IMG/VR virus record: IMGVR_UViG_3300048925_000677 | Location: 1 to 53,568 of that record | Strand: one strand, 5' to 3' | DNA: 53,568 nt | From: a virus | Part shown: positions 8,304 through 49,539 of the stretch, in pieces | How the letters are laid out: each line of letters opens with the position of its first letter | Numbering within the stretch: the stretch's first letter is position 1 | Notes under the pieces: generated by a model | Seen by the model: the letters and a program-made list of their open reading frames with translations, nothing else | Database searches by the model: none | Told to the model about the DNA's origin: nothing | Program-made: the position numbers and the translations under genes

Positions 8304-8617
8304 CCGACCTGACCGAACGCGCCAAGGCGTCGCTAGAAGGCATCACCGAGGGGCGCTGGCGAGCCGTCAATGTCGGCAATATCCATTGGGGCGTGACCCA
8401 CGGGGAGTATAACTTCCCGACGGTTGTCAAGGCGCAGTGTGGGTACGACGGCTTCGGCAGTGGCAGCTCCCAGGTCAACGCCGAATTCATCGCCGCCGCA
8501 CCGGATCTCGTTCGGGAACTGGTCGCCGAGGTCGAGCGGCTTCGGGCGCGCGAGGAGTCCGTCGCCGAAGCCTCGTATCGGACCGGCATGCTCGACGCGG
8601 AGGGGATCCTCCGGTGA
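8300..8617 (+). CDS. Ead/Ea22-like protein (105 aa)
   Basis: A 105-aa protein whose NAEFIAAAPDLVRELVAEVERLRA segment (about 67-90) is the recurring helical module of Ead/Ea22-type small phage proteins. The N-terminus (TEGRWRAVNVG) fits too. These proteins are widespread in phage accessory operons and have no settled function. ATGA overlap upstream and GTGA downstream. Confidence 0.68.
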   Translation: MTDLTERAKASLEGITEGRWRAVNVGNIHWGVTHGEYNFPTVVKAQCGYDGFGSGSSQVNAEFIAAAPDLVRELVAEVERLRAREESVAEASYRTGMLDAEGILR

Positions 8618-12465: not shown

Positions 12466-13293
12466 CTAGCCCAGCCAGCACTTCCGGGTCAGGTCGTGGA
12501 TAGCGTCGTTGGAGGTACCCTTGCCGTCCCATAGACCGGTTCTGGATGCCATTGGCATCTCCCACCACAAGGCCGCTTCTTCGCGCACCTGGCGGGTCTT
12601 GAGTCCCGTGGCAACTCCGGCGTAGTGCAGCCAAAAATCATCCGCGCGAGGGCATATACCCATGAAGGCGTCACCCTTTTCTCGCAGCGCGTGTTGGATG
12701 ACCGGTGGATAGGCAACCCCAGACACGCCCGTGGCGAGATGCAACTCCGACGGTTCCATGGTGGCGCAGATGGGCCACGACGCATACGGACCCTCTGAGC
12801 GCACCCTGGCGCGGTAAGCCGTGATTTGATCATCCCGATGTGCCGATAGAAGCTCTTCTAGCCATGTGGGTGGGTAGTAGGTGTCGTCATCGGCCGTCAC
12901 AAGGGTAGCGGGAGCGCAGTTTTGGACATAGGGAAAGTACTTCTTGTGTGGCCCATAGTCTTTACACAGGACCACTTCCAAGCCGCGCTTGCGCAATCTG
13001 TACAACTGGGGGCTGTCGAAAATCTCATCCACCCACAAGATCATCCGGTTGGGTCGCACCGTCCCGTTGGCGATGGTCTCAACAGCTTTCCATGCCGTGT
13101 TGAGGCGTTTGCCGTAACTCGTCATGGACACGACGGCGGGAGCATCACCCGTAACCGGTTCGTACGATGTGAGATTTTGACGCCACAGCCTTGGCCCGAG
13201 GGCGATGTACTCGGCGAGCGCTGCCGCCTTCCCTGATACTGAGGCGGGGAAGGCGCCGTCGTTGCGACTGTCGATCACGGCAACAATATACAC
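12466..13293 (-). CDS. Glycosyltransferase, lone minus-strand gene
   Basis: Up to 275 aa. VVSMTSYGKRL, the MILWVDE strand and CKDYGPHKKYFPY match capsule/OCH1-like glycosyltransferases; LVTADDDTYY (131-140) holds the DxD metal/nucleotide-sugar motif. It would transfer a sugar from a nucleotide donor; acceptor unknown, perhaps the phage particle, given the sugar genes at 42506-46649. GTG 13293 is the longest start; GTG 13278, six bases after a TATATT box, could be a leaderless start (270 aa). It converges on the plus-strand arm and is cut off from the late operon by terminators. Confidence 0.78.
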   Translation of the reverse strand: MYIVAVIDSRNDGAFPASVSGKAAALAEYIALGPRLWRQNLTSYEPVTGDAPAVVSMTSYGKRLNTAWKAVETIANGTVRPNRMILWVDEIFDSPQLYRLRKRGLEVVLCKDYGPHKKYFPYVQNCAPATLVTADDDTYYPPTWLEELLSAHRDDQITAYRARVRSEGPYASWPICATMEPSELHLATGVSGVAYPPVIQHALREKGDAFMGICPRADDFWLHYAGVATGLKTRQVREEAALWWEMPMASRTGLWDGKGTSNDAIHDLTRKCWLG

Positions 13294-38144: not shown

Positions 38145-38702
38145 CTACTTGTGAAATGCGAGGTAGGCGATCAGTCCGCGAAGCTTCTCGACGCTGTCGT
38201 TGACGCCGCCAAGAGCGACATTGCATCCGTTGCAGAGCAGCGATCTAACGCATTTGCCGCACGACTTCTGGCCGGGGCAGCACGCGTGGTCGTGATCGAC
38301 GTCGAGGCTGCGCCTATCGGGCCCGCTAGAGCAGGTCGGATTTGCGCATACGCCGCCTTGCTGTTCGAGCATGGCGATGTAATCCGCTTCGGTGATCCGA
38401 TACTTGCTCTTCAGATAGTCGTTGCGGCGCTGTGATTTTCGATACCCTGACCCGCGCGGGGAAGCCGCGTACTGGCGCTGCCGATCCTTGATGCGGTCAC
38501 TATTGGCTTGGTAGTAACTTTTCTGATACAGAGAGCTGCACGCTTTACACCAGTGCTGCAGGCCATCGTGCGTGCTGCGGTTCTTGCCGAACTGATCTAG
38601 CGATTTTTCGGTCTTACACTTTGTGCATGCCTTCAGTGGATGTCTACACTTTCCCAATAGGGCTGCAGGGCTGTGGAGCCCGCGGTGGTGGACACAGCCC
38701 AT
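38145..38702 (-). CDS. HNH endonuclease, endonuclease VII type
   Basis: Up to 185 aa. Zinc knuckles CTKC (26-29), WCKAC (51-55), then the endonuclease VII core: CANPTC (119-124), LDVDHDH (133-139) and VRSLLCNGCN (152-161). These nick branched or target DNA; many phage copies are homing-type insertions. It sits between the major tail protein and its chaperones, where no such gene is needed. The exact start is unclear: ATG 38702 lies in a hairpin loop, and a TTG near codon 16 is possible. Confidence 0.8.
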   Translation of the reverse strand: MGCVHHRGLHSPAALLGKCRHPLKACTKCKTEKSLDQFGKNRSTHDGLQHWCKACSSLYQKSYYQANSDRIKDRQRQYAASPRGSGYRKSQRRNDYLKSKYRITEADYIAMLEQQGGVCANPTCSSGPDRRSLDVDHDHACCPGQKSCGKCVRSLLCNGCNVALGGVNDSVEKLRGLIAYLAFHK

Positions 38703-41294: not shown

Positions 41295-41651
41295 TCAGCC
41301 GTCCATCCGCTGGCAGATGATCGTCACCTTGAACGGCCGGCCGCGCGGACCCGGGAACACCCTTGGCCCGCCGACGATCTGGTAGGTGATGCCGTCGACC
41401 TCGACCTCGTCGTTCGACTTGGCTGCCATCACCGTGGCCGTCGGCGGCGCGGTGCACCTCCACGGGTCGGTAACGATGTCGCCCACGTTGATCGCCGGGG
41501 CGTCGATCTCCTCCTTGGCGGTCATCGGACGAAAGCGGCACCCGCGCACGGGTACCTTTACGCGGACAGTCTCGGGATTGCCCAGGATGTCGCGGTTGTT
41601 CAAATCCTCGGTGACAGTGACGAAGTAGACCGTCTGACTGCCTAGCCTCAT
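41295..41651 (-). CDS. Head-to-tail stopper
   Basis: A 118-aa protein with a small beta-barrel pattern (VRVKVPVRGCRFRP, EVEVDGITYQIVGGPR) typical of gp16/stopper-type proteins that seal the head after packaging. It lies between the adaptor and the gp10-like gene. Called by order and fold type. Confidence 0.7.
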   Translation of the reverse strand: MRLGSQTVYFVTVTEDLNNRDILGNPETVRVKVPVRGCRFRPMTAKEEIDAPAINVGDIVTDPWRCTAPPTATVMAAKSNDEVEVDGITYQIVGGPRVFPGPRGRPFKVTIICQRMDG

Positions 41652-42208
41652 GCGACCGGAATCAATCGATACTGGTACAGGACGGACTCTTGCATCGGTT
41701 GCTTGGCGATACCCCAGCTACGGTCTGTGATACCAGACGCGCGCAGGGAGACATCGTCGACCTCGATGCCAGTAAGCTGACCACTGAGGCCCGTGCCGGC
41801 ACTGGCCACGGTGCGGTCAATGAGCGCCAGCACCTCCTCGCGGAAGGCCATTGCCTCGGCCGCGGCGAAGCCATGCTCCACCGTGACCACCACGCGCCCA
41901 CGCCAGAAACCGTCCTTGCGGTACAGGATTCCGGGTTCGTTGGTGTACTGCTCGATCTCGTCGACCGGAACAGTCACGCCATCTTCGGTGCACGAGGTAA
42001 TGGAATCGACCTTCAGCGTCGGGATGACGATGTAAGGCCATCCGCCGCCGTCGACCACGAAGGTGTCCGACCGGACCGGCGAAACGTGCCAGCCGCAATA
42101 CCGGCGGACCTTGTCGAGGGATGTGGCCAGTAGGCGCGCGTTCTCGACAGGGTCGATCAGCTCGGGGTTGTAGGCCACGACGTCGGCAAGTTCAAGCTCT
42201 TCAGCCAT
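41648..42208 (-). CDS. Head-to-tail adaptor
   Basis: A 186-aa protein starting with helices (PVENARLLATSLDKVRRYCGW) and continuing YIVIPTLKVDSITS, FWRGRVVVTVEHGF, the order of connector/adaptor proteins (gp6/gp15 type) that attach to the portal. Overlaps the stopper by 4 bp. Confidence 0.75.
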   Translation of the reverse strand: MAEELELADVVAYNPELIDPVENARLLATSLDKVRRYCGWHVSPVRSDTFVVDGGGWPYIVIPTLKVDSITSCTEDGVTVPVDEIEQYTNEPGILYRKDGFWRGRVVVTVEHGFAAAEAMAFREEVLALIDRTVASAGTGLSGQLTGIEVDDVSLRASGITDRSWGIAKQPMQESVLYQYRLIPVA

Positions 42209-42225: not shown

Positions 42226-42498
42226 TTAGTCGGTGGTTTCCTTGCGGGGACGGCCGCGGCCACGCTTGACGGGCTCTGCGGCGGTCTCCAGGGGCGGCTC
42301 GCTCACGGCGGTCTCGGTCGGTGCCGCGGCAACCTTCGTTTCCGGCGCCGGCGCGGAGACAGCCTTCTCGAAGTCCTGCAATGAAGCCCGCACCTGGCGG
42401 GCCCTATCCTCGGCGTCGACGGCCTCGTAGACCGCCAACTCCTGTAAGAGGGCCGCGCGGTAATCGGCCGCGAAGTCCCTCACGTTCTGGTCGGACAT
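42226..42498 (-). CDS. Small protein with AT-hook-like tail
   Basis: A 90-aa protein: helical N-terminal half (RDFAADYRAALLQELAVYE), Ala/Pro/Glu-rich linker, and a basic end KRGRGRPRKETTD that contains the AT-hook core RGRPRK. Similar small proteins beside actinophage head genes are annotated as hypothetical or DNA-associated. It may bind minor-groove DNA. ATG 42498 is favoured; the ORF can be extended seven codons. Confidence 0.62.
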   Translation of the reverse strand: MSDQNVRDFAADYRAALLQELAVYEAVDAEDRARQVRASLQDFEKAVSAPAPETKVAAAPTETAVSEPPLETAAEPVKRGRGRPRKETTD

Positions 42499-42505
42499 GT
42501 TTCTC

Positions 42506-43201
42506 CTACCGAGGGTCACTCTCGACCCTCTCGAAATCGTTGATCATGGGGCTGTAGATGTCTTTCAGCCGCTTTCTGTCGTCAGTTCTCAGGTGCGTGC
42601 GGTGCTCCAGGCGGACATCCCACAAAGGCTCAGCGGGAAGCGCTTTCGGGCCGGCAAGGAATTCACGCTTGCCGTCGACCGGGGCGGTGACGACGAAGTG
42701 CGCCTGCTCGATCCGAATGCCGGGGATGGCGCGGAACAGGCACCGCAGCGGATGCTGGGCGTAGCTGGAGGCTTCGCGCTGCCAAAGCATCACCTCGGCG
42801 GCGTGTGCGTCAGTGGCCGCCAGTCGAGACTTGGTGTCCGCGGGTACATCGGAGATGATCTCATCGGCGTCAACCCGGAAAAACCAGTCGCCCGGCTGCG
42901 CAAACGTCATGCCGAGCTGGAACATGAAGTCCCGCTTGGCAACTTCGCCACCCCACTCGTCCCCCCACCAGACCTTGCGCGACTGATGGATGGTGCAACC
43001 GATGCCGGCGCCCGCGGCCGTGCGCAGGATCGCGTCAGCCTGGTCGGTGCCGCTCGCCGGCTGCATCATGGCACCCGGGAAGCCCGCATACGGGCCGTCA
43101 ACGGCGATGATGTGGTCGGCCAGTCGCGCGGTAGCGGCAACGCACTCGGCGAGCCAGGTGGGGCTCTCCTCGTACCAGTTCAGCAGTGCAATTATGGCCA
43201 T
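42506..43201 (-). CDS. Glycosyltransferase, GT2-like
   Basis: A 231-aa protein starting MAIIALLNWYEESPTWL. LADHIIAVDGPYAGF and GDWFFRVDADEII (DxD-type motif) are the nucleotide-sugar-binding core of GT-A-type transferases; AKRDFMFQLG lies in between. Part of a sugar block with the dehydrogenase at 43604 and two more transferases. Likely target: phage structural protein or host surface glycan (inference). ATG 43201 overlaps the previous gene by 10 bp. Confidence 0.75.
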   Translation of the reverse strand: MAIIALLNWYEESPTWLAECVAATARLADHIIAVDGPYAGFPGAMMQPASGTDQADAILRTAAGAGIGCTIHQSRKVWWGDEWGGEVAKRDFMFQLGMTFAQPGDWFFRVDADEIISDVPADTKSRLAATDAHAAEVMLWQREASSYAQHPLRCLFRAIPGIRIEQAHFVVTAPVDGKREFLAGPKALPAEPLWDVRLEHRTHLRTDDRKRLKDIYSPMINDFERVESDPR

Positions 43202-43419
43202 GCGGCCACCCGAAGACACACGGTCGGGAGGATGCGGGGCGGGTCGGTGAGCGTTCGTGCGTATTCGATACCGGTGATCCGGTATCTACCGCCGTCAATC
43301 TCGACGACCTCTCCAATGTTCAAAACCGCATCTTCATAGGGAAGCTGGCGAGTGTCCACCGCGGCGACGCGGCCCCGGCCGGTGATTGTGAACCAATCGT
43401 CGGCTGCTAGAAATTTCAC
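43192..43419 (-). CDS. Small beta-barrel protein (75 aa)
   Basis: A 75-aa protein with GTG start coupled to the stop before it (GTGA). Repeated short strands (WFTITGRGRVAAVDT, GEVVEIDGGRYRITGIEYAR) fit an SH3/OB-like barrel. It may be a head-decoration or connector accessory. No family recognised. Confidence 0.6.
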   Translation of the reverse strand: MKFLAADDWFTITGRGRVAAVDTRQLPYEDAVLNIGEVVEIDGGRYRITGIEYARTLTDPPRILPTVCLRVAAWP

Positions 43420-43607
43420 GCTGGCCTCACCCTCCCTACGGGTACGCACACCGTCTGGTGGGGCGCCAAACGCTCAGTGCCGCTGCCGTAGTCGGCCTCG
43501 GGGTCGATAGCCACGGTGCAACGCGCCCAGCCGTGGTCGATCCGCTCGACGTGGCCACGAAGGTCTTCGCCATCGAAGTCGACAATGACGTCGTCGCCGG
43601 GATTCAT
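43416..43607 (-). CDS. Small protein (63 aa)
   Basis: A 63-aa protein (DDVIVDFDGEDLRGHVERI, CTVAIDPEADYG) with a KOW/SH3-like strand pattern, starting at an overlap with the dehydrogenase stop. Probably a companion of the next small barrel protein. Function unknown. Confidence 0.58.
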   Translation of the reverse strand: MNPGDDVIVDFDGEDLRGHVERIDHGWARCTVAIDPEADYGSGTERLAPHQTVCVPVGRVRPA

Positions 43608-44827
43608 CGTCGCCCCAATCGCTTAACGGTCACGCCATCCCGATCCGGAATGACGCCGAAGGGGTCGACCACAACCGAGCCCTCGGGGAACTCCAGCGAG
43701 CGATACCGCTCATTGTTGGTGGCCAAGAAGTACACAGCCTTGTACATGTAATCCACATCGTTGACGTGCAGGAACTGCTCGCCAGACTGGCGGAGGATAT
43801 CGGCCATCAGCATTGCCGCGCTGCCGGTTTCGATGTCGGTCTCGGGCTTGAAGGCCGTTCCGAGCACGATGAGTGGCAGATCATGCTTCTCGGCGTAGTA
43901 GGAGGCGACCTCGGCGTGCCAGGCCTCATACTCCTGGCGGGCGTGCATCAGCGCGTCCCAGATGTTGAAGGACATGTCAACCTCTTCGGCGAGCCAGGAC
44001 AGCGCGATATTGTCGCGCGGGTGGCAGCCGCCACCGTCGGACATGCCGGCATCCATGTAGCGGCTCGACAGTAGCCGGCGGTCGGCGAGATCCCAGGCTG
44101 CCTTCATGTCGTCGAAATTCATGCCCATGCGCTCGCACATCTCGCCCCAGCAGTTGGCGATGACCGTCTTGGCGGTGATCCACGTGTTGTACGAGACCTT
44201 GATTCCCTCGGCCGTCGTCACGCCGGTGCGGATGCACGGGGCATCATTGATCGTGGCGTAGAACTCCTCCAGGAGATCCGCGGCCTCGTCGCTGCAGACG
44301 CCGATCAGGTTGAACTCCGGGTGTAGGTAGTCCTGCAGGACGGTGCCCATCGCGATGAACTGCGGGGTGTAGACATAGTCGACGAAATCGTTGAGTAGCG
44401 GGGCGATCTCGCGGGAGAACGTGCCGGGCAGGCAGGTGGAGATGACCGCGACAGTCTTGCGCACGCCCAGCCGCTCGCACGCCGCGGCGACGGCGGCCAC
44501 GCCCTCCTTCAGAAAGGTGTAGTCGAAATCCTCTCTGGCGTCGGGCATGATCGTGGCGCCCTCAAATTCCGGCGCGTGCGGGGTCTGGATGGCGACGAAG
44601 ATGATGTCCGAGTCGGCAACTACCTCGTCGACGGTGTCGTGCCACTGGATGTCATGATTGTCGAGCAGCGGCTGCAGCCCCTCCTCGCGGAACGGGATGA
44701 AGCGCGACTCCAGGTAAGTCTTGACGTCAGGATTGGCGTCGGTTCCGCAGACGGTGTGGCCGCGGCGTTCGATGGCTAGTGCGACCGGCAAGCCGAGCTT
44801 GCCCAGTCCGACATGACCAATTCTCAA
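43604..44827 (-). CDS. UDP-glucose/GDP-mannose dehydrogenase family enzyme
   Basis: A 407-aa, full-length nucleotide-sugar dehydrogenase. N-terminal Rossmann motif GLGKLG (7-12); IQTPHAPEF; STCLPGT (130-136); central EGIKVSYNTWITAKTV; catalytic C268 in DGGGCHPRDN; C-terminal GTAFKPETDIETGS. The family oxidises the C6 alcohol of a UDP- or GDP-sugar twice to a uronate using NAD. It would supply a charged sugar to the neighbouring glycosyltransferases. Such an enzyme within phage head genes is unusual. Sugar specificity cannot be read. Confidence 0.88.
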   Translation of the reverse strand: MRIGHVGLGKLGLPVALAIERRGHTVCGTDANPDVKTYLESRFIPFREEGLQPLLDNHDIQWHDTVDEVVADSDIIFVAIQTPHAPEFEGATIMPDAREDFDYTFLKEGVAAVAAACERLGVRKTVAVISTCLPGTFSREIAPLLNDFVDYVYTPQFIAMGTVLQDYLHPEFNLIGVCSDEAADLLEEFYATINDAPCIRTGVTTAEGIKVSYNTWITAKTVIANCWGEMCERMGMNFDDMKAAWDLADRRLLSSRYMDAGMSDGGGCHPRDNIALSWLAEEVDMSFNIWDALMHARQEYEAWHAEVASYYAEKHDLPLIVLGTAFKPETDIETGSAAMLMADILRQSGEQFLHVNDVDYMYKAVYFLATNNERYRSLEFPEGSVVVDPFGVIPDRDGVTVKRLGRR

Positions 44828-44845
44828 AGTGTTCCCCTTTGGTGG

Positions 44846-45403
44846 TTAGTCGAGTAGTGCTGCGATGTTTCGCTCGGATGTGTTGCCGCCGTTGCAGTGC
44901 ACTGCGGCAAATGCTTCAGCGAGCGCCTCTGGCGCGTTGAAATGGCCGTCCTTAAACGAGTAGCGGGCCAACTCGTCGTAGTCGACGGCGTCCGTCCATG
45001 TGAGATCGATCAGCGCGCGCGACGGTGCGTCACCGCGATTAGCGTCGAGGATGTGCGCGGCCTCGTGGTAGGTGACGAACTCCATTGGCGTGCAGGACAC
45101 GGTCCGCGGGTGGAAGTGACTCGCCTCGTCGTTGGCCATGGACTTCTCGAACGCGGCGCGATCCGCCAGAAATGTCGAGTTGAAGGTGATTACCCCACCG
45201 CCGGCCTGTGCGTAGATGTCATTGAGTGGCTCGGAGTCGATCTTGACGTCCCGCAACTCCGGGTATTTCACGGCGAGTTTGTCTATGGCGCCGTCAATCT
45301 CGGCGGAGAGCGTCGGGTCGGCGCCCTGACTGAGCTTGGTCTCGCCACATGCGGCAAGGGTGGCAACGATAACCGCGGCGGAGGCGAGATATTTGATGAG
45401 AAT
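44846..45403 (-). CDS. Lipoprotein with HExxH zincin motif, apparent ATT start
   Basis: A 185-aa frame. It encodes a clear lipoprotein leader (LIKYLASAAVIVATLAACG; lipobox LAAC, Cys19) followed by TYHEAAHILD (HExxH at 113-117) and APEALAEAFA, which may give the third metal ligand, as in zinc metallopeptidases. No ATG, GTG or TTG precedes the leader; AGGAG sits 8 nt before ATT 45403, so ATT is the likely start. GTG 45271 would drop the leader. A surface protease or exclusion protein is possible; role unknown. Confidence 0.65.
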   Translation of the reverse strand: MLIKYLASAAVIVATLAACGETKLSQGADPTLSAEIDGAIDKLAVKYPELRDVKIDSEPLNDIYAQAGGGVITFNSTFLADRAAFEKSMANDEASHFHPRTVSCTPMEFVTYHEAAHILDANRGDAPSRALIDLTWTDAVDYDELARYSFKDGHFNAPEALAEAFAAVHCNGGNTSERNIAALLD

Positions 45404-45414
45404 GGGCTGTTCTC

Positions 45415-45960
45415 CTAGCGCCCGTATGTCAAGCTGTTCCCCGGGCTGAAGAAGTAGTGGTAGAGCGTCTGATCGATGTAATGCTCGGTCTTTGGCGAGA
45501 CCTGGTCGGCCCAGCGCTTGTCCTCCCCATAGCCGCCGTTAAAACGTCCCTGTCGGGCGATCTCGGTGCGAATCGGGTTGAGGTGGCTGACATTCCGGTA
45601 GTAACCGTTAGCGTCGTCGGACCACTCGTCGTACTCAAGCGAGTGATAGGTGGGCTTCTGGCGCGCTCCGTCGATGTAGAGCTGAAGCTGGAAGCCGATA
45701 TAGTCGACACCGTCGAGAAGCGGGTAGATGGCGTCGACGTAGTTGCCGGCGACCATGTCGTCATCGTCGATGAAGTTGAAGTACTCCCCCGAGGCGTTGT
45801 CCAGGCACCACTGCCGTTTCTCGGCGACGGTTCCCGGCATGTTGCAGGTCATCAGCTCGATGTCCGAGCGAGCCTGAATCTGTGGAGTGAGGGTGTTCAT
45901 GAGCCGGGCGTACTCGTGGCGGCGCTCAGGGACTGTGAGGACCGCTATCGTCCACTTCAC
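45415..45960 (-). CDS. Glycosyltransferase, GT2-like
   Basis: A 181-aa protein from GTG 45960, coupled to the previous stop (GTGA). WTIAVLTVPERRHEYARLM and GEYFNFIDDDDMVAGNYV give the GT-A fold start and the DDDD metal motif; RFNGGYGEDKRWADQ looks like the acceptor region (GxxxED). Second transferase of the sugar block; it overlaps the third by 4 bp, which suggests a joint pathway. Confidence 0.75.
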   Translation of the reverse strand: MKWTIAVLTVPERRHEYARLMNTLTPQIQARSDIELMTCNMPGTVAEKRQWCLDNASGEYFNFIDDDDMVAGNYVDAIYPLLDGVDYIGFQLQLYIDGARQKPTYHSLEYDEWSDDANGYYRNVSHLNPIRTEIARQGRFNGGYGEDKRWADQVSPKTEHYIDQTLYHYFFSPGNSLTYGR

Positions 45961-46649
45961 TGCATGACCTCCTGCAGTTTCGCCGCGGTGTCGCGAATGA
46001 GCGCCTGCACTTCGGCGCCGTAGTACAGCTCGTCCGGCCGGCACTCCTGGTGGCGGGCCAGGCGCTCGCTGGTGTTCTGATCGATCTCCGCCTTGCCCAC
46101 GATGTAGTGCATGTGCTCGGTGTAGATGTCGATCTCCAGGTGGCGGCCAATGAGTTTGGAGACGTCGTTAAGGAACGTGTCGTTGAAATCGCTGACGAAC
46201 AGCGGCGGGAAAAGGAACCCGGCGGTCTCGACCCACTTGCGATGGATGAAGCCGTGCGTCCCAAAGTTGTTGCCGTCCTGGTATCCGTCGCGCCCGAAGG
46301 CGAACAGGATCTTGTCCGGGTAGGCATCGAACGTCTCGCGCACAACGTCGTCCCAGCCGGGCGTGCGAAACACGATGTCGTCGCCGCAGTGCATGATGAT
46401 GTCCGCGCGCGACGCGTCGAAGCACAGATTCCACATCGCCGAGAGGTTCACGAGATTATCGCGCTCTCGGGGGCCACGGACCTGCACCCATTTGATGTCG
46501 ATCTGCAGGTCGTCGTATGAATGGTCATCAGAGTCGATGTACGTCACGATCCGGATGTTTTCCGGGTGCGACGCCGTGGCGTTGATGGAATCAACCAAGC
46601 GGCTCAACTGATTCGGCCGCTGGCGGGTTGGGAGGAGGAGGTCAATCAA
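45957..46649 (-). CDS. Glycosyltransferase, GT2-like (TTG start)
   Basis: A 230-aa protein. IDLLLPTRQRPNQLSRLVDS is the standard GT2 start; IVTYIDSDDHSYD, then ADIIMHCGDDIVF hold acidic motifs. The longer reading from 46787 overlaps another gene and lacks sense, so TTG 46649, with AAGGCGG upstream and overlapping the previous stop, is chosen. Third transferase of the block; possible role in particle glycosylation. Confidence 0.72.
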   Translation of the reverse strand: MIDLLLPTRQRPNQLSRLVDSINATASHPENIRIVTYIDSDDHSYDDLQIDIKWVQVRGPRERDNLVNLSAMWNLCFDASRADIIMHCGDDIVFRTPGWDDVVRETFDAYPDKILFAFGRDGYQDGNNFGTHGFIHRKWVETAGFLFPPLFVSDFNDTFLNDVSKLIGRHLEIDIYTEHMHYIVGKAEIDQNTSERLARHQECRPDELYYGAEVQALIRDTAAKLQEVMQ

Positions 46650-46776
46650 GGACGGGGACCGCCTTGATGCGCATTTCAGCCTGCTCTTCAGCGGGGCGGT
46701 CAGCCATCTCCATGCAGAGGCGCTGGAAGCGCTCGGCGACGGCAACGGGCTCCCCGCGGTCGGTGAGGACATGCAT
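46642..46776 (-). CDS. Small helical protein (44 aa)
   Basis: A 44-aa ORF with a good GGAGG site and ATG 46776, directly after the operator dyad at 46791. Helical (AVAERFQRLCMEMADR). It begins the sugar block operon and overlaps the first glycosyltransferase. Unrecognised, but ribosome site and position are convincing. Confidence 0.55.
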   Translation of the reverse strand: MHVLTDRGEPVAVAERFQRLCMEMADRPAEEQAEMRIKAVPVLD

Positions 46777-46790
46777 GAAACCTCCAATTT

Positions 46791-46806
46791 GTCTCAATAG
46801 TGAGAC
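46791..46806. promoter_or_regulatory. Operator dyad GTCTCA-N4-TGAGAC, second copy
   Basis: GTCTCA-ATAG-TGAGAC, the same dyad as at 7130-7145, with the same ATT to the right and a GAGATT at the same offset. It lies in a 98-bp divergent region, 15 bp from the 44-aa gene on the left and 68 bp from the island genes on the right, so it could control both. Confidence 0.55.
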
Positions 46807-46811
46807 ATTTG

Positions 46812-46840
46812 TTGCATTGGCGAGATTCGGGACTTAGATT
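46812..46840 (+). promoter_or_regulatory. Promoter of the three-paralogue island
   Basis: TTGCAT (46812-46817) and TAGATT (46835-46840) with 17-bp spacing. The -10 starts at the same distance from the operator dyad as TACCGT does at 7174. Leader of about 28 nt with AGGAG before the ATG at 46875. Confidence 0.5.
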
Positions 46841-46874
46841 GGGGACACAGGCCACACAATCCCAGGAGATGAAC

Positions 46875-47228
46875 ATGACCGTTTTGCAGGACTTGATCGA
46901 TTCGCGCGACCTTCTGATCCGGGGTGGGTACACCGCCCACTATCTCAGGATGGACGGGCGCCACTGCGCGGTCGGCGCGGTGCTCGATGCCACCGGCAAC
47001 GAGGACATCCACGCCTTCATCTACAACACGATGAACGAGCGGGGCGCCGCGGTGATTCGTGCGCTGAATGCCACCCTCCCCGAGGATTTCCAGCCACATC
47101 TCAATTCTCAGCACCTGGGGGACATCGCGTCTCGGGTGGCTGGATACAACAACCGGAGGGGCGAGGAGGCGGTGATCGCAATGTTCAATTCCGCCATCGC
47201 CCGCGAAGAGACGCTCGTCTCGGCCTAA
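46875..47228 (+). CDS. DUF6197-like paralogue 1
   Basis: A 117-aa protein: TVLQDLIDSRDLLIRGGY, HCAVGAVLDATGNED, NTMNERGAAVIRAL and GYNNRRGEEAVIAMFNSAI. The HCA-GA core is the conserved center of DUF6197-type phage/actinobacterial proteins of unknown function. It opens a plus-strand island between late minus-strand genes. The promoter, operator and AGGAG site are all upstream. Confidence 0.75.
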   Translation: MTVLQDLIDSRDLLIRGGYTAHYLRMDGRHCAVGAVLDATGNEDIHAFIYNTMNERGAAVIRALNATLPEDFQPHLNSQHLGDIASRVAGYNNRRGEEAVIAMFNSAIAREETLVSA

Positions 47229-47253
47229 CCCCAACCGCCAAAAGGAGATTCAC

Positions 47254-47652
47254 ATGACCGTTTTGCAAGATCTGATCGACAGCCGCGACCTCATCATTCG
47301 CGACGGGTGGTCGCTCGGCCGGCTGCGCGGCGCGAACGGAAGTCACTGCGCCATGGGCGCGGTGCTCGATACCACCGGCAACGAGCACATCAACCACTCG
47401 CTCGCATACGACACGATGAACGAACGCGGCCAAGCGGTGACCGCCGCGCTCTACGAGGCAATTCCCGCGGAGAAGCGGGCCTCGATCATGGCCGAATGGG
47501 GCGATGAGATCGCAGAACTCCACCCGGATTGCGTCCGAGGGTGCACCGTGGGTGACTACAACAACTACTTCGGCGAGTCGACGGTGATCGAGATGTTCAA
47601 CGTCGCTATCGCCCAGCAGCGGGCCGCCGCCTCCACTTCATACAAGCGCTGA
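47254..47652 (+). CDS. DUF6197-like paralogue 2
   Basis: A 132-aa protein, about half identical by eye to paralogue 1: same start (TVLQDLIDSRDL), HCAMGAVLDTTGNEH, NTMNERG-like DTMNERGQAVTAAL and DYNNYFGESTVIEMFNVAI. It carries an insert (DEIAELHPDCVRGCTVG) with two additional Cys. AAGGAG site precedes the ATG. Probably arose by tandem duplication. Confidence 0.75.
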   Translation: MTVLQDLIDSRDLIIRDGWSLGRLRGANGSHCAMGAVLDTTGNEHINHSLAYDTMNERGQAVTAALYEAIPAEKRASIMAEWGDEIAELHPDCVRGCTVGDYNNYFGESTVIEMFNVAIAQQRAAASTSYKR

Positions 47653-47666
47653 AGGAGATATCGAAC

Positions 47667-48053
47667 ATGACACTCTTGCAGGATCTGGTCGCCAGTCGCG
47701 ACCTACTCGTCAAGGATGGATGGGTGGCGCACAAGTTGCGCGACTCCGAAACGGGCGCGCGTTGCGCCGTCGGTGCGGTGCTCGACGCCACCGGGAATGA
47801 AGACCTCGACGCGTTCACCTACGGAGAGATGAACGAGCGCGGCGTCGCGGCGGTGGATGCCCTCTATAACCTCCTACCGGTGGGGTGGAAGGGGTATCGC
47901 GAAGCATCGTTGACCACGAAGGCGATCTGCATCGCCGACTACAACAACGGACGGGGCGAGCAGCCCACCGTTAAGCTCTTCGAGAACGCCATCGACGCCC
48001 TCGCGCCGGCAGCCGTGGGCTGCGGCGTTCGGCAAATAGGCGTGTTCCGTTGA
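47667..48053 (+). CDS. DUF6197-like paralogue 3
   Basis: A 128-aa protein with TLLQDLVASRDLLVKDGW, RCAVGAVLDATGNED, GEMNERGVAAVDALY and DYNNGRGEQPTVKLF. The core His is Arg (RCAVGA) here. The last residues pass into the hairpin at 48044. AAGGAG site. Third member of the tandem set; divergence between members argues for distinct tasks. Confidence 0.74.
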   Translation: MTLLQDLVASRDLLVKDGWVAHKLRDSETGARCAVGAVLDATGNEDLDAFTYGEMNERGVAAVDALYNLLPVGWKGYREASLTTKAICIADYNNGRGEQPTVKLFENAIDALAPAAVGCGVRQIGVFR

Positions 48054-48159: not shown

Positions 48160-49539
48160 TTACGCGAAGGTCGGCGCGGTGAGAGCGGTACCGGTGATTT
48201 CGGCAATGCTCTCCGAGTGGCGCTCAGCGGTGAACGCCAAGAAGCCGTAGACCTGCAGCAGGATCGTCAGGTTGTCGGCCCGCGTCTGGTCGAAGGTCCG
48301 GGTACGGATGCCCGATTCGAACAGGAGCAGGTCGCTCGCGCGCAGGATGTGGACGACATCCTGGTTGGTGCCGGCACCGAGGTTGGTCGGCAGCAGCGGG
48401 TCGGTGTACACGGGCAGGCCGTGCAGGTTGCCCACGTAGCCGGCGGTGATGACGCCGCCGTGCGTACCGATCAGCGGGGTGCTCGCGTTGGACGAGCCCG
48501 AGATCAGCGGCACGTCGTTGGCGGTGAACACCGCCTGCAGCTGAGACCAGCGCCGCGGGTGCATGACGATGACCTCGGCCGGCAGGGTGCGCTGAGTACC
48601 CACGCGCTGGATCGCGTCAGCGATCTTCGCGTAGAGGGTCTTGGCCTTCGACAGCTCGTTACCGGCGTCGGTCGCGGTGATCGTGGTGATGCCAGAGGCA
48701 TTCCGGACGCCCTTGACCTGGCCCGAGGTATTCGAGCCGTTGATGACCTGCAGGTTGAGCTTGTTCGCGTAATCCGCCGAGAGATCCCGGAAGATGATCT
48801 CGTCGAAGTTCAGCGGCGACTGCTCCAGCGCCTGGATGGACAGGGCCTGCGCACCCGCGATGGTCTTGACCTGCGCCGAGACGAAGGTGTCGGTCAGGTC
48901 GACCTCGGTGATCGCGGTGTTGTCCGCGGTCTGGATGCCGGTCGAGGTGCCGGTCGCGATCTTCGGGATCGAGATCGAGTCCGTGCCGCCGGGCAGCGGC
49001 TCAGACGGCGCCAGGTTGGCGTAGACCCGACCCGGGCGGGACAGCTCGATGAAGCGGTCCATCAGCCATACGGGCGGAACCAGGTAGCCGCCGGTGCCGT
49101 CGGTCCGGTTCAGGGCGCGGACCTCATTGGCGTGCGCATTCAGGCGCGCCTGCACCTGATCGTCACCCATGTTGAAGGCGCGGGCCAGCATGTCCTGGAC
49201 GTAGGACTTGCCGTTACCCTTCTCATAGGTGCGGTGCTCGTTGGTGACGGTCACGGTCGTGGTGGGACGGGTCACGTTGCGGACCTCCTCGGTGTGGCGG
49301 CCGGCGCGCGCAGCCTCGGCTTCCAGGTCGGTGATCTGGCTGGACAGGTCGTCGACCCGGTCCTGCTTGGCCTTGACGCTGGCGGTAGCCGCGCGGAAGG
49401 CGGTGTCCTCGTCCTCGGTCAGGTCGGCGTCGCCGCGGGCCTCGACAGCGTCGAGAACGGCGTCACGGGCGGTGATTTCGGCGTCGATCTCGGCCAGGAG
49501 GGCGGCGCGAGCTTCGATCAGCTTCTGCAAACGATCCAC
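48160..49539 (-). CDS. Major capsid protein, HK97 fold
   Basis: A 459-aa protein. Residues about 1-90 are a charged coiled coil, the scaffold-like delta domain removed by the protease; the mature part begins near SYVQDMLARAF. Typical HK97-type elements are GTGGYLVPPVWLMD, SPLNFDEIIFRDLSADYANKL, VIVMHPRRWSQL and LRASDLLLFESGIRTR. GTG start with AAAGGAG. Follows the protease by a 181-bp structured gap. Confidence 0.92.
   Translation of the reverse strand: MDRLQKLIEARAALLAEIDAEITARDAVLDAVEARGDADLTEDEDTAFRAATASVKAKQDRVDDLSSQITDLEAEAARAGRHTEEVRNVTRPTTTVTVTNEHRTYEKGNGKSYVQDMLARAFNMGDDQVQARLNAHANEVRALNRTDGTGGYLVPPVWLMDRFIELSRPGRVYANLAPSEPLPGGTDSISIPKIATGTSTGIQTADNTAITEVDLTDTFVSAQVKTIAGAQALSIQALEQSPLNFDEIIFRDLSADYANKLNLQVINGSNTSGQVKGVRNASGITTITATDAGNELSKAKTLYAKIADAIQRVGTQRTLPAEVIVMHPRRWSQLQAVFTANDVPLISGSSNASTPLIGTHGGVITAGYVGNLHGLPVYTDPLLPTNLGAGTNQDVVHILRASDLLLFESGIRTRTFDQTRADNLTILLQVYGFLAFTAERHSESIAEITGTALTAPTFA

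Follow-up and report, generated by a model that had tools for sequence, protein, structure and literature searches.

RESULTS

A sugar-nucleotide and glycosyltransferase block among the head genes

The window analyzed here, bases 1-53568 of the 117,568-base viral record IMGVR_UViG_3300048925_000677, carries a minus-strand gene block between its major capsid and head-tail adaptor genes. The block holds a predicted nucleotide-sugar dehydrogenase of 407 amino acids, three glycosyltransferase (GT)-like open reading frames (ORFs), here called GTa, GTb, and GTc, and a Zn-protease-like lipoprotein. Family matches and synteny recovered this content as the original prediction, made from the sequence alone, had described it. 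From capsid to connector the order is GTa, GTb, Zn-protease-like lipoprotein, dehydrogenase, two small ORFs, and GTc; annotated genes of cluster J phages, similar in sequence and identically ordered, ruled out a chance arrangement or artefact. The genes are as follows.

48160-49539, minus strand: major capsid protein of the HK97 type, upstream anchor of the block (PF05065, 78.2 bits; TIGR01554; 74% identity to WXIN)
46642-46776, minus strand: 44-amino-acid ORF overlapping the GTa start (strongly matched only within the window and its near-identical contigs)
45957-46649, minus strand: GTa, a glycosyltransferase family 2 (GT2)-like glycosyltransferase of the GT-A fold (phrog_14945; AlphaFold2 model; fold matches; gene linkage)
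45415-45960, minus strand: GTb, a GT2-like transferase (phrog_14775, E 1e-37; weak PF00535)
44846-45403, minus strand: Zn-protease-like lipoprotein (phrog_7153, E 9e-39; 38% to Ariel gp18; lipobox LAAC; HEAAH)
43604-44827, minus strand: nucleotide-sugar dehydrogenase of a divergent family, 407 amino acids (Pfam domains, model, alignment)
43416-43607, minus strand: 63-amino-acid protein, phrog_1693 (also in WXIN [L008], L019, L087, L134, and L145; L numbers denote compared loci)
43192-43449, minus strand: small ORF, 85 amino acids (weak library matches only)
42506-43201, minus strand: GTc, glycosyltransferase phrog_7009, downstream anchor (E 6e-104; 57-64% to WXIN and cluster J genes)
42226-42519, minus strand: head-tail connector (assigned by synteny and by 45% similarity to the LittleE and Ariel proteins; no Pfam family scored above its cut-off)
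41648-42208, minus strand: head-tail adaptor (matches the LittleE, Ariel, and Bobby adaptors at 52%)

The capsid protein shares 74% identity with its counterpart in Mycobacterium phage WXIN and about 67-68% with the capsids of many cluster J (Omegavirus) phages, and Mycobacterium phages made up 57 of the 59 records matched in the capsid search. By these sequence comparisons, the window phage is a relative of the cluster J mycobacteriophages. An integrase at the far end of the record agrees with the temperate relatives (PMC3706429), and the phage is probably an Omegavirus-like temperate phage with Mycolicibacterium as its probable host.

A divergent dehydrogenase with altered catalytic residues

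The dehydrogenase had been named a full-length UDP (uridine diphosphate)-glucose/GDP (guanosine diphosphate)-mannose dehydrogenase, and the family profiles agreed with this in part. Two domains scored over their curated cut-offs (PF03721, 70.3 bits against 27; PF00984, 53.2 bits against 25.4), whereas the C-terminal domain PF03720 (13.9 against 30 bits) and TIGR03026 (153.8 against 189.8) fell below theirs, and the structural model still continues into a third domain. As judged from sequence, the protein is a member of the nucleoside diphosphate-sugar dehydrogenase superfamily, within a divergent family common in phages.

Eighteen residues have been reported as invariant across 229 enzymes of this superfamily (PMC4794789), and 16 of them are kept in an alignment of the window protein with 132 relatives. 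These relatives, all longer than 330 amino acids, represent 132 of the 135 loci with a dehydrogenase match (108 when made non-redundant at 95%); near-duplicate contigs are included, as is L003 from a phage collection. Fetching used patterns over columns 77-84 and 262-278, one pattern search contributing 80 of 519, so that invariance within those columns is partly built in; columns 10, 131, 156, 160, 210, 213, 214, 297, and 334 lie in no fetching pattern. Outside the patterns, Thr131, Lys210, and Asn214 are invariant in 133/133 rows, as are Glu207 and Lys327; Cys268 and Asp272 are equally invariant but lie inside the patterns. The three N-terminal glycines have gaps in 2 rows.

The statement that all key motifs were present did not hold up. 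The GLGKLG motif has Lys where Tyr10 is expected, PQFIAMG stands in place of PEFLxEG, Asn287 corresponds to Arg297, and Arg327 corresponds to Thr334. These replacements run through the family: the Glu141 column is never Glu (Phe in 94 of the 133 rows, Gln in 21, Ser in 7, Leu in 6, Ala in 3, Tyr in 2; Gln156 in the window), the Asn287 column is Arg in 133/133 rows, and the Tyr10 column, filled in 131 rows, is Ala in one of them and Lys in the other 130 (Lys10 in the window). The Glu145 column is Met in 133 rows (window Met160), and the Arg327 column holds Thr, Val, Leu, or another residue. On the same alignment the classic pattern, Tyr or Phe at column 10 with Glu at 156 and 160, appears in four other enzymes of Mycolicibacterium sp. 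S2-37 and in 5 of 10 other phage enzymes, so the alignment is able to reveal that pattern where it exists. Of the remaining phage enzymes, P-TIM68 and S-SSM7, both outside the 133, are intermediate, with Glu kept at column 156 and Arg at 10, and Bellamy, HTVC008M, and AG-345-E15 share the window type, HTVC008M, also outside the 133, with Gln at column 160.

Human Glu161 presumably falls in the same column as Glu141. According to the title of Protein Data Bank (PDB) entry 3khu, a Glu161-to-Gln variant of the human enzyme was crystallized with the thiohemiacetal bound. Tyr10, 98% conserved, has been assigned to thioester hydrolysis (PMC4794789). Since residues assigned to this last step are missing, an acid product, part of the original prediction, is not supported. 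The replacements are not proof of lost hydrolysis, because the same paper describes Glu141 as helping to hold the loop and Lys204, with Asp264 as the general base (PMC4794789).

Residues that mark the named groups were likewise compared. For UDP-glucose dehydrogenases, the group residues other than Gly238 (Leu211, Phe218, Ile27 or Cys, Lys116, Ser8 or Ala, and Ala207) are represented by Ile217, Ala224, Gly28, Ile129, Leu8, and Tyr213; the host control enzymes did not carry all of them either. Only one of five GDP-mannose dehydrogenase markers (His217, Leu126, Ala263, Arg122, Cys213) is present, Leu126 as window Leu133; a control enzyme from phage Y5 showed 5/5 on the same alignment. The UDP-N-acetylmannosamine (ManNAc) dehydrogenase markers Pro155 and Arg211 are replaced by Met160 and Ile217. 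By its residues, the dehydrogenase fits none of these three groups.

Predicted folds of the dehydrogenase and GTa

The dehydrogenase model (predicted local distance difference test [pLDDT], 95.2) matched the GDP-mannose dehydrogenase 1mfz best, with a Z score of 34.6 and a root mean square deviation (rmsd) of 2.1 Å over 387 residues, the superposition being of a monomer model. UDP-glucose and UDP-ManNAc enzymes matched at Z scores of at most 28.0 and rmsd values of 16.9-20.6 Å, which reflects a different arrangement of domains. GDP-mannose dehydrogenase is described as a domain-swapped dimer (PMC10740432, PMC4794789), and the window enzyme is GDP-mannose dehydrogenase-like in predicted build. 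For a GDP-mannose dehydrogenase proper the fold agrees and the marker residues disagree; an ordinary UDP-glucose dehydrogenase was rejected in view of its group residues and its fold.

GTa also gave a confident model (pLDDT, 94.8) with a GT-A fold. Its 50 listed PDB entries, GT2-type enzymes at Z scores of 15.6-18.5, include mannosyl-, fucosyl-, N-acetylgalactosaminyl-, and chondroitin-polymerase transferases, fold matches that are too general to name a sugar. A DxD-like motif is present, GDD and EHxH motifs occur in most alignment rows, and there was no Pfam match.

Linkage of GTa to the dehydrogenase

The GTa family, with membership set by single-linkage clustering of BLAST matches reaching about 20-25% identity, was the commonest neighbor of the dehydrogenase. 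It lay within 6 kb in 73 of 135 loci and directly upstream on the same strand in 39 of the 125 with room for it; after reduction to non-redundant loci, the counts were 60/108 and 33/101. None of six other tabulated families exceeded 36 non-redundant loci within 6 kb, the figure for an epimerase family, or 7 directly upstream. GTa was within 6 kb in 16/43 bacterial and 44/65 viral contigs. Sequence linkage of this kind makes GTa the probable partner of the dehydrogenase in a donor-transferase pair.

Other genes also recur around the dehydrogenase. Frequent neighbors are the epimerase, radical SAM/B12, methyltransferase, and DegT aminotransferase families (L249, L193, L205, L238), a hint at complex sugars. 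In marine T4-like phages, NadE-like (NAD-synthetase) genes lie at or near it, and a single-linkage cluster with a 588-amino-acid NAD_synthase-domain representative neighbors it in 25 loci. These NAD-synthetase-like neighbors (L296, L297, L304, L305; L223, 6238-8001) may serve NAD supply or sugar amidation.

Sugar amidation touches a more speculative variant of the scheme, which we regard as unlikely. The family would have given up hydrolysis, and the Cys268-bound intermediate would be released as an aldehyde or a uronamide, yielding a non-host, perhaps uncharged, C6-modified capsid sugar placed by a dedicated transferase. Release by an amine as the uronamide agrees with the NadE-like neighbors.

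Full-length and truncated forms in cluster J relatives

In cluster J phages, the interval between capsid and connector holds a block, described in 2013, in which transferases stand together with methyltransferases and a Zn-protease (PMC3706429). The window has such a GT-rich block there, and the place and general function of the block are already known. What sets the window apart is the dehydrogenase. Searched as a whole protein against 50,697 phage records, it matched 80, including 49 from Mycobacterium phages, and among the nine Mycobacterium matches listed only residues 295 or 306 to 403 were covered. Residues 1-287 alone matched 31 phage records, with no Mycobacterium phage among them.

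The Mycobacterium matches correspond to a gene of about 100 amino acids in cluster J (L002, 12004-12309; L010, 7361-7666; L009, 14291-14593), labeled hypothetical in the LittleE, Ariel, and Bobby annotations, that represents the C-terminal domain of the dehydrogenase. This stub (LittleE gp19 and relatives) is without the FKPET loop. Its ratio of nonsynonymous to synonymous substitution rates (dN/dS) was 0.06 and 0.08 in close pairs and 0.11, 0.30, and 0.50 in three others; dS was saturated in 3 of 8 pairs, and for the pair Bobby-L093, with a dS of 3.1, dN/dS is unsure. The stub is thus apparently under purifying selection, and the values in those five of eight pairs disfavor a pseudogene.

It is conceivable, if improbable, that the full-length dehydrogenase has itself lost catalysis and persists in a binding or scaffold role, with the cluster J stub a further step on the same path. 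The lost catalytic-loop residues would fit, as would purifying selection on a stub that has no FKPET loop, but the invariance of Lys210, Asn214, Thr131, Glu207, and Lys327 throughout the alignment would be unexpected if catalysis had been lost.

A full-length dehydrogenase and a capsid gene occurred in one locus in four lineages: the window with its two near-identical contigs, L018, L134, and the prophage L245 (the partial L095 was left out). GTa and GTb accompany the dehydrogenase in 4/4 of them. At an E value of 1e-5, GTa had no match in any of the 12 stub loci spanning the interval (LittleE, WXIN, Bobby, Ariel, Redno2, Wanda, L019, L087, MiaZeal, Courthouse, Omega, and Thibault; the partial L015 and L145 and the duplicates L041, L093, L096, L102, and L103 were left out). 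A Fisher test on 4/4 versus 0/8 gave a P value of 0.002, illustrative only, with stub lineages collapsed by hand and treated as independent. Distant GTb relatives are found in the stub loci of LittleE (33%) and Omega (31%), and GTc is present with full-length and stub forms alike. In the capsid tree, the window, with the full-length form, and WXIN, with the stub, are sisters at 100/100. Sister capsids with different modules indicate that the module was exchanged or lost, and they contradict the idea that module type tracks phage descent. The GTc tree was poorly resolved, with 1 of 11 branches starred.

A prophage copy and the enzymes of the probable host genus

In Mycolicibacterium sp. S2-37, one region of a 1.5-Mb contig (L245) has the genes for capsid, GTa, GTb, the dehydrogenase, and GTc in that order, and we read it as a prophage. 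The same genome has four other PF00984 matches, all with the classic residue pattern. Across 198 genomes of the genus, with at most 9 candidates scored per genome, 121 had a family-profile match of 1e-40 or better; the prophage copy scored 606.9 bits, raised by construction since the query profile contains it, and the next match scored 177.5. The host genus has canonical enzymes of its own, with the window family found there, among the candidates scored, on the prophage only.

That the phage carries an ordinary UDP-glucose dehydrogenase topping up host UDP-glucuronate is a reading we hold to be improbable. Similarity to the Pfam families and TIGR03026 and the retained oxidation residues speak for it. 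The two published invariants that are not kept and the absent UDP-glucose-specific residues argue against it, as do the four other S2-37 enzymes with classic residues and the profile matches in 121 of the 198 genomes of the genus.

Position next to head genes in other loci

Fourteen further locus groups were compared outside the Omegavirus relatives (L169, L170, L172, L173, L176, L178, L179, L180, L181, L182/L187, L183, L184-186, L195, and L197), and in 7 of them the dehydrogenase has a major head gene upstream. These groups were chosen mostly as nearest relatives of the window, and the evidence is a scan of selected neighboring ORFs or a capsid match; L182 and L187, at 97% alike, were counted once, as were the identical loci L184-186. 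The head genes matched phrog_267 and others in L169, phrog_1328 in L173, L181, and L183, and phrog_1357 in L180, and the head proteins of L184-186 and L187 are 33% and 29% identical to the window capsid.

This recurring place beside capsid genes bears on the possibility that the enzymes alter the host envelope (arabinogalactan, glycolipids) during lysogeny or infection and exclude other phages, head-gene position only setting late expression. The temperate relatives and the integrase would suit such a role, and the lipoprotein-like protease suggests that some of the block may function at the cell surface. An envelope role has been proposed for pelagimyophage glycan genes, UDP-glucose 6-dehydrogenase included (PMC7029224), and PBCV-1 is reported to make hyaluronan with its own UDP-glucose dehydrogenase (PMC7019647). 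However, the ten ORFs scanned, the block and its plus-strand neighbors, contained no flippase or acyltransferase family, late genes would probably serve superinfection exclusion poorly, and the recurrence in half of the groups fits less well. We judge an envelope role to be a minority possibility.

Other features of the record

No GT2 family scored over cut-off in the record; there were two sub-threshold matches, one of them GTb. An ORF near the endolysin genes (12466-13293, minus strand) gave a faint GT2 match of 14.3 bits and no PHROG match. Neither epimerase, nucleoside triphosphate (NTP)-transferase, nor thymidylate synthase families were found in the record, which may be incomplete, and DNA hypermodification was rejected as a candidate for want of supporting genes there. 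SP-15 offers a precedent for a sugar placed on phage DNA: it encodes a UDP-glucose dehydrogenase, and phosphoglucuronate is attached to its DNA (PMC5977210). The SP-15 enzyme keeps the classic Glu residues, and the window block lies in head genes, so we consider this role very improbable here.

Probable starts are TTG at 46649 for GTa, GTG at 45960 after AGGAGG for GTb, and ATG at 43201 for GTc. Position 46776 is the ATG of the 44-amino-acid ORF, not the GTa start, and the overlap of the two perhaps reflects translational coupling. The protease frame extends upstream into the lipobox LAAC; its probable start at 45403 (minus strand) is a rare ATT, and the L134 dehydrogenase probably starts with ATC at 8388. 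Three tandem DUF6197 genes (46800-48053, plus strand) separate the capsid gene from the block, an arrangement matched, among compared loci, only in the near-identical contigs of the window. An Endonuclease VII-like ORF amid the tail genes (38145-38702, minus strand; PF02945) is perhaps a free-standing homing endonuclease.

DISCUSSION

A proposed variable glycan cassette serving the virion

We infer the activity, substrate, and product of the dehydrogenase, the acceptor, and the purpose of the block as follows. The block would be a variable glycan cassette in which the dehydrogenase and GTa make a C6-oxidized sugar and transfer it onto virion proteins, a reading we favor with a little better than even confidence. 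The dehydrogenase would take a nucleotide-bound hexose and oxidize C6 by the covalent Cys268 route, with Thr131, Lys210, Asn214, and Asp272 in place; the Glu and Tyr of ordinary members are absent, and the last step would be altered. GTa would transfer the resulting sugar, GTb and GTc may add or prime other sugars, and the acceptor would most likely be the capsid or tail-tube protein produced concurrently. The original idea of a phage-made donor with transferases serving the virion is thus retained as the likeliest reading, on the strength of the position among head genes, its recurrence in 7/14 groups, and the reported glycosylation of mycobacteriophage capsids and tails, while its ordinary enzyme and acidic sugar are unsupported. 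In the mass-spectrometry table of Omega, none of the 17 virion proteins is named as a block enzyme (PMC3706429), which agrees with enzymes acting in the cell.

Several observations weigh on the other side. The replaced equivalents of Glu141, Tyr10, Asn287, and Arg327 could mean an altered or inactive enzyme. Of the 108 non-redundant loci, 48 have no GTa within 6 kb, some of them because the contig ends too soon, and no upstream head gene was found in the other 7 of the 14 groups, where only some ORFs were scanned; within this half, there was a match to a virion protein downstream in L178, a weak one to a tail protein in L195, and an endolysin in L179. The dehydrogenase family also occurs in marine T4-like phages, clustered with NadE-like, carbamoyltransferase, and methyltransferase genes, and glycan genes of pelagimyophages have been suggested to change the host O-chain (PMC7029224). 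No glycan on any virion of this phage group was found in the literature examined.

If virion decoration is correct, phages make, and do not only borrow, sugar for their particles, and an enzyme family departs from the textbook mechanism. The work names a donor-transferase pair that is testable in vitro, identifies the orphan cluster J gene as the remaining domain of a dehydrogenase, and bears on how mycobacteriophages vary their surface. In open-licence literature, mostly judged by title and abstract, we found none describing this dehydrogenase family; as far as these searches reach, the module variant, the family, and the link to GTa appear undescribed.

Comparison with known systems

Among characterized enzymes, AlgD (1mfz) is the best sequence and fold match, with a domain arrangement like that predicted for the window monomer, but its Tyr10, Glu157, and Glu161 are replaced in the window enzyme. 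UDP-glucose 6-dehydrogenases (3vtf, 3gg2, BceC, and human) share the superfamily and the oxidation core and differ at the Tyr10, Glu141/145, and Arg327 positions and in domain arrangement.

At the level of the locus, the closest system is the cluster J block (Omega, LittleE, Thibault, Courthouse), which has the same place, flanks, GTc, and dehydrogenase C-terminal domain. The Zn-protease, present in most cluster J blocks and unmatched in LittleE or L019, is in the window a homolog of Omega gp18 and Ariel gp18. The window has a full-length dehydrogenase with GTa and GTb, whereas the cluster J blocks combine the stub with different GTs, with methyltransferases, and in some phages with a kinase.

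Glycosylation of virions by mycobacteriophage transferases has been reported for Che8, Corndog, and Myrna (PMC12363180) and also for cluster O (PMC11600133). In Che8, Corndog, and Myrna (Freeman 2023), phage transferases act on capsid and tail tube, as proposed here, although the passages citing that work mention no phage-made donor. Virion glycosylation in chloroviruses and Megavirinae (PMC7019647, PMC10117803) is described as drawing on both donor synthesis and transferases supplied by the virus, as proposed for the window, in eukaryotic viruses and with other enzymes.

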